From Salipiger bermudensis (lineage in GTDB: Bacteria; Pseudomonadota; Alphaproteobacteria; Rhodobacterales; Rhodobacteraceae), in contig NZ_JAHVIA010000002.1 of assembly GCF_019801965.1 (NCBI RefSeq), forward strand, positions 496,001 to 560,000: 64,000 nucleotides of DNA, written 5' to 3'. Each line of letters starts with the position of its first letter. Position 1 is the stretch's first letter. Below, piece by piece: positions 55,341 to 55,710 of the stretch. The position numbers and the translations under genes were made by a program. Below the pieces are notes generated by a model. That model saw only the letters and a program-made list of their open reading frames with translations. It did not search any database and was not told where the DNA came from.

Positions 55341-55710
55341 GGCGACCTGTCCCTTCCGCCGCACCGCCACGCGGCCCGGACACAAACCCCCGAGCCCGAG
55401 ATTTACGCCCGCCCCGGCGCCGCACAACCCCACGAAAGGCATGGCGGGGTTGCCATGCAGAGCGCCGTTTTTCGCTTGCTCATCAGGGCTGTAGGTTGGA
55501 CTCGCACGCGCTTCCCGCGGACGGCGAAAGCGGTGCCTGAGAGGGCGAAATGGCGGCGGATCGTTGCGCTCCGGGCGCCAGTCGCGGCGCCTGTCGGAGG
55601 GGTGCGAAAAATGCGGTCACGAAACCGGGAACTCTCGTTTTACTTGACCTAGATCACCTCGCACTCGCCTTAATAGGTTTATCCTCGGGTCAGATTTCGG
55701 ATGAGAGACG
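55341..55710. other. Divergent promoter region between sqdB and the N-ATPase operon
   Basis: 370 bp containing promoters of both flanking operons. Its right third is AT-richer and holds a candidate FNR site and -10 element (listed separately). No gene was recognised. Confidence 0.55.
55644..55657 (+). promoter_or_regulatory. candidate FNR/FnrL site TTGACCTAGATCAC upstream of atpD
   Basis: The half-sites TTGAC and ATCAC around a 4-bp spacer fit the alphaproteobacterial FNR-family pattern TTGAY-N4-RTCAA with one deviation at the last base. Its centre (55650.5) is 54 bp before the TATCCT-to-start interval; a -10-like TATCCT at 55680-55685 predicts a start near 55692, which puts the site at about -41.5, the class-II activator position. 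Confidence 0.55.

Follow-up and report, generated by a model that had tools for sequence, protein, structure and literature searches.

The 64,000-nucleotide stretch of Salipiger bermudensis DNA analysed here (the window) encodes an N-type ATPase, a class of enzyme whose purpose is disputed, with salt, acid and ion pumping all having been considered. The operon and its divergent neighbour were assigned by profile matches as follows.

54105–55340, reverse strand: UDP-sulfoquinovose synthase-like divergent neighbour, outside the operon (322 bits, cut-off 575)
55711–57141, forward strand: atpD, N-type F1 beta subunit
57138–57602, forward strand: atpC, epsilon subunit
57599–57877, forward strand: atpQ, ATPase_gene1-like (43.3 bits, below the cut-off of 46.7)
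57859–58149, forward strand: atpR, the N-ATPase marker (PF12966, 43.8 bits, cut-off 26)
58149–58841, forward strand: atpB, a subunit
58844–59092, forward strand: atpE, c subunit; each helix carries an acidic residue
59106–59840, forward strand: atpF, b subunit whose C-terminus resembles delta (residues 174–241 match a delta model)
59833–61365, forward strand: atpA, alpha subunit
61362–62207, forward strand: atpG, gamma subunit

The order atpDCQRBEFAG is that of N-type ATPases; a separate delta gene is absent, and the b subunit is extended by the delta-like part. A second beta subunit, of the F-type and 52% identical, is encoded elsewhere in the 4.83-Mb genome (G000:C3). The order, atpR, the b-delta fusion and the accompanying F-type enzyme are shared with known N-type operons (the Dibrova type; B. 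pseudomallei, PMC5376962; ProAD, PMC11738941, as far as these are described in the parts consulted), whereas here every subunit falls below the NCBIfam cut-offs for the alternate F1F0 (alt_F1F0/altF1) families: TIGR03305 gives 618 bits against 752, TIGR03324 gives 592 against 750.5, and the remaining models are also below. The name N-type is thus based on the anatomy of the operon and not on the NCBIfam models. The c subunit has two carboxylates and the motif ETMxxY instead of ESTxxY, which bears on Na+/H+ specificity.

The distribution of the enzyme is patchy. Sixteen of 20 genus genomes have a full-length N-type beta subunit and one more (G008) a partial one, while three (G003, G007 and G013) have the F-type beta only, so that the genus has seen loss or acquisition of the N-ATPase. 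In the family, at least 38 of 394 genomes, the window genome counted, carry an N-type beta, defined as at least 62% identity among the matches listed at E 1e-150 or better.

The region between the divergent neighbour and atpD contains the elements of a candidate promoter.

55644–55657, forward strand: FNR-type box TTGACCTAGATCAC, centre 55650.5, a predicted FnrL activator site
55680–55685, forward strand: -10 hexamer TATCCT, 22 bp 3' of the box
55692, forward strand: predicted transcription start, from the box/-10 geometry only

The box matches TTGAY-N4-RTCAA at nine of ten positions, with one mismatch. With a start at 55692, the box would be centred at -41.5, TATCCT would span -12 to -7, and a leader of 19 nucleotides would precede the atpD ATG at 55711. 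The initial annotation had proposed exactly this arrangement, an FNR-type site followed at the right distance by a -10-like TATCCT with a start at about 55692, and the coordinates, with their 22-bp gap, agree with it. A search of positions 55342–55760 for sigma-70 -35/-10 pairs found none, which is what an activator-dependent promoter would lead one to expect. The hexamer TTGACC was considered as a -35 element and rejected, because TATCCT lies 30 bp past it and no sigma-70 pair is present.

The same class II arrangement is documented in Dinoroseobacter shibae, where the sites at nosR2 and hemA3 described in PMC5398030 also lie at -41.5; the palindrome, the TAnnnT-type -10 and a genomic FnrL are alike, while in our case the target is an N-ATPase operon and the start is predicted. 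The promoter type is textbook knowledge and the N-ATPase as its target is new. The open-licence literature, searched with FNR, low-oxygen, anaerobic and general queries, yielded no report of FNR control of any N-ATPase.

How much weight the box can bear depends on how often such a box arises by chance. The window contains a single copy of the core TTGAYNNNNRTCA, and shuffles give an expectation of 0.56 per 64 kb, so that the box alone is weak proof. The combination is rarer: allowing one mismatch, we found one box with TAnnnT at class II spacing in the window, where 0.05 would be expected, and in the whole genome the box with TAnnnT at a gap of 21–23 bp is found at 10 places and the reversed pattern at none. 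We also derived a scoring matrix from 42 FnrL sites published for R. capsulatus and R. sphaeroides (PMC4634722), the weakest of which scores 9.2, and applied it to the window. TTGACCTAGATCAC reaches 16.0, the highest value of all window positions (the runner-up has 14.8) and at or above 12 of the 42 published sites.

The genome encodes a regulator that could recognize this box. FnrL, encoded at G000:C2 near 489.7 kb, scores 470.7 bits with the NCBIfam FnrL equivalog (cut-off 300) and combines an N-terminal cysteine cluster with the recognition helix TLETVSR. Among the CRP/FNR-type proteins compared (frames L196–L201), the E..SR recognition residues and the cysteine cluster occur together in FnrL only: L197 carries E..SR and lacks the cysteines, and in L198 the cysteines go with a different helix.

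FNR boxes also precede ccoN/uspA and fnrL in this genome, the best-known targets of FnrL, which are listed among its direct targets in PMC4634722. The ccoN-uspA intergenic region (L099:6148–6351) contains a perfect FNR palindrome and a second site, TTGAGCATTGTCAA (6273), which is followed 22 bp downstream, towards uspA, by TAGAGT. This 22-bp gap is shared with the N-ATPase promoter; the ccoN/uspA region, a target published for two Rhodobacter species (PMC4634722), has the perfect palindrome besides, whereas the box at the N-ATPase deviates from the consensus at one position. In the one F-type atp region covered (L224), nothing upstream matches the FnrL matrix comparably well: the best site there has a score of 12.4 and is a long way from the first gene.

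The decisive evidence for the promoter is comparative. N-ATPase loci were collected from genus and family genomes, from species genomes (80 named loci) and from a phylum sample, giving 138 usable upstream regions, of which 120 remained after removal of near-duplicates; loci were dropped if their beta subunit shared less than 60% identity with AtpD of the window or if their upstream region was too short, and these limits removed ten of the 16 phylum-sample loci. A plain MAFFT alignment of the promoters put the boxes out of register and was kept out of the counts.

Boxes matching at least eight of ten positions were present in 75 of the 120 promoters (shuffle mean 19.4), at least nine in 37 (1.8), and all ten in 11 (0.1). 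The distance from such boxes to TAnnnT is sharply distributed: 12 promoters have a gap of 21 bp, 21 of 22 bp and two of 23 bp, and every other gap between 5 and 59 bp is represented by zero to three promoters. Class II geometry, an FNR-like box with TAnnnT 21–23 bp further on, was thus found in 35/120 promoters, against a mean of 0.19 and a maximum of 3 in 500 shuffles, although the shuffles overstate the significance since loci of one genus or family are kin and not independent. In control searches the same geometry occurred in 2/120 cases on the reverse strand and in 1/119 in the region further upstream. The claim of an FNR-type activation geometry is borne out by this recurrence, and the suggestion to look for the same box before atpD in related genomes led to a matching arrangement in a minority of them.

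The matrix of published sites gave similar numbers: class II geometry in 33/120 promoters against 1/117 control regions, and a score of at least 14 at any site in 35/120 against 2/117. By group, with order labels assigned by hand, the matrix-based class II promoters comprise 19/54 in the own-family sample, 8/16 in named Rhodobacterales, 4/15 in Burkholderiales, 2/24 in a mainly Hyphomicrobiales/Rhodospirillales group and none among the remaining 11. A sharp peak at 21–22 bp that recurs across different genera is hard to account for in another way. The signal is a property of a minority of N-ATPase promoters, since 85 of the 120 lack the full class II geometry by our counting rule, and among the 16 genus loci with a full-length gene, L037 and L045 have no box of at least 8/10 within 400 bp.

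Two of the phylum-sample loci removed by the identity limit, the distant AtpR-bearing L103 and L105, whose beta subunits are 51–52% identical, have perfect 10/10 FNR palindromes approximately 145–155 bp before atpD, one of them with TAACAA at 22 bp from the box. Because both boxes are perfect, dropping these loci did not favour the FNR reading.

Among named relatives, Salipiger bermudensis HTCC2601 has the operon most similar to this one, with 93% identity in the a subunit. Between the two genomes the box is identical at 14/14 positions, the -10 at 6/6 and the spacer at 18/22, and the box of HTCC2601 has the same good matrix score of 16.0; the upstream sequence 55342–55600 is identical at just 128 of 259 positions. 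A chance box in front of a -10-like word, with the operon transcribed from another promoter, would be compatible with the 0.56 core boxes expected per 64 kb and with the many positions from which the initial annotation could pick; given the perfect box amid diverged flanks and the spacing repeated in other N-ATPase promoters, we regard it as very improbable. The two-genome alignment revealed one more conserved block, possibly the site of a second regulator.

55615–55634, forward strand: block GGTCACGAAACCGGGAACTC, 20 bp, upstream of the box, identical in S. bermudensis HTCC2601

In one Salipiger/Alloyangia group (L038, L039 and L041), the box is preceded at a distance of about 25 bp by an inverted repeat resembling GCGCTG-N-CAGCGC, possibly the site of another regulator.

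In most other Rhodobacterales the left half of the box, TTGAY, is retained and the right half is lost, reading ATCGT, ATCCT or GCGCAA; TTGATCTGAATCGT is an example. Their matrix scores of 5.6–12.6 are near or below that of the weakest published site (9.2), and the GCGCAA right half occurs also in a published FnrL target, CTGATGCAGCGCAA (PMC4634722). Such boxes may be weak sites that are occupied only when FnrL is highly active, or a different CRP/FNR protein may act on them. An alternative for the window itself is that another CRP/FNR-family activator, for example a nitric oxide- or redox-responsive one such as L197, drives the class II promoter and that the signal is not oxygen. FnrL and Dnr box types overlap, according to the part of PMC5398030 consulted, L197 has AREVVSR in its recognition helix, and the degenerate right half-sites of many relatives are unlike strong FnrL sites. 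On the other hand, the window box itself scores above the weakest 11 of the 42 published FnrL sites, FnrL is the one protein among those compared with both sequence features, and the window genome has no match to nirK or nosZ, so that a regulator driven by nitric oxide would lack an obvious denitrification context. We therefore consider control by another activator unlikely.

A denitrification link of the N-ATPase was considered and rejected. In the family, nosZ is present in 9/38 genomes with an N-ATPase and in 91/356 others (Fisher P = 1.0), and nirK in 7/38 and 44/356, respectively (P = 0.31), the 38 being a lower bound. Since both genes are absent here and unassociated with the enzyme in 394 family genomes, induction at low oxygen should not be taken to mean a role in denitrification. 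The conserved FNR-type promoter ties the N-ATPase to low-oxygen life and not specifically to denitrification.

Taken together, the spacing of an FNR-type switch and its recurrence in relatives suggest that the cell probably produces the N-ATPase once oxygen is exhausted; an interpretation of the promoter as a low-oxygen switch is supported by these sequence comparisons. We assign a probability of roughly 75% to a class II FNR-type promoter through which FnrL drives a low-oxygen N-ATPase isoenzyme. As oxygen falls, FnrL would regain its [4Fe-4S] cluster and dimerise, bind TTGACCTAGATCAC at -41.5 and bring RNA polymerase to TATCCT, and atpDCQRBEFAG would be transcribed from about 55692. Transcription driven by FnrL would make the N-ATPase a low-oxygen isoenzyme beside the housekeeping F-type enzyme. 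It would most likely act as an ATP-driven ion pump, upholding the membrane potential as respiration slows. If confirmed, this would explain why these genomes keep two rotary ATPases and when the second one works.

The direction of ion flow could also be the opposite: FnrL would bind as proposed, and the main role of the N-ATPase would be to make ATP when the driving force is low. A large c-ring moves more ions per ATP and, by our thermodynamic argument, would permit synthesis at a lower gradient; the N-type c-ring of B. pseudomallei is given as 17 subunits, or 5.7 ions per ATP, in PMC5376962, and low oxygen means a weak gradient. Opinion in the portions of PMC11738941 and PMC9927469 consulted favours ATP-driven pumping, and we consider a synthase possible but doubtful.

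Published data on N-type ATPases and oxygen come from several organisms. Several N-type ATPase subunits of Nitrospira marina are more abundant at low O2 (PMC8115632), a low-oxygen association shared with the enzyme proposed here; that evidence is protein abundance in another phylum, and the passages of that report dealing with the ATPase name no promoter or regulator. The usual view in the literature, that N-ATPases confer an advantage at high salt (PMC4154653), and the proposal of acid homeostasis (PMC5376962), both as worded in the sections consulted, suggest a salt- or pH-stress pump for which oxygen control would be incidental. We consider this quite unlikely, the recurring promoter element being FNR-type and the N. 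marina enzyme rising at low O2.

In Burkholderia thailandensis under oxygen limitation, the induced operon described in the relevant part of PMC3966863 is the chromosome 1 F-type only, which counts against the low-oxygen reading. At 37 C, atpD-2 to atpG-2 decrease, as do the genes for nitrate reductase and nitrous oxide reductase and universal stress genes (PMC3966863), which fits a shared programme. For D. shibae, which has an N-ATPase (PMC4154653), FnrL-mediated repression of the F-type genes is described (PMC5398030).

More broadly, in Rhodobacterales, Paraburkholderia and a number of further proteobacteria the N-ATPases may belong to the FNR regulon and serve, beside the F-type enzyme, as a low-oxygen isoenzyme that holds the ion gradient once respiration fails, much as cbb3 oxidase takes over from aa3; we put this tentative generalization somewhat below even odds. 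If true, membership of the FNR regulon would offer a physiological explanation of why N-ATPases are so patchily distributed.

Finally, we looked at the neighbours of the operon in relatives. None of the 80 named loci has an FnrL or cbb3 gene adjacent to the N-ATPase operon. In nine of these 80 loci the operon lies next to PEP synthase or to an ORF that neighbours it (a count made with no matched control), in Celeribacter, Thioclava, Salipiger mangrovisoli, Dyella and Rhodanobacter: PEP synthase stands head-to-head with the operon, or the ORF follows it, in L120, L126, L128, L142, L145 (upstream), L165, L184 and L190 (downstream). The ORF after the operon is presumably metallo-beta-lactamase-like, as judged by eye, and the names MBL, LOG, cytochrome c and DUF6455 used for other genes are likewise tentative; PEP synthase, FnrL and ccoN are the gene names checked by profile. 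The window genome has counterpart genes elsewhere, in an island on G000:C7 (L223) that contains three class II boxes.
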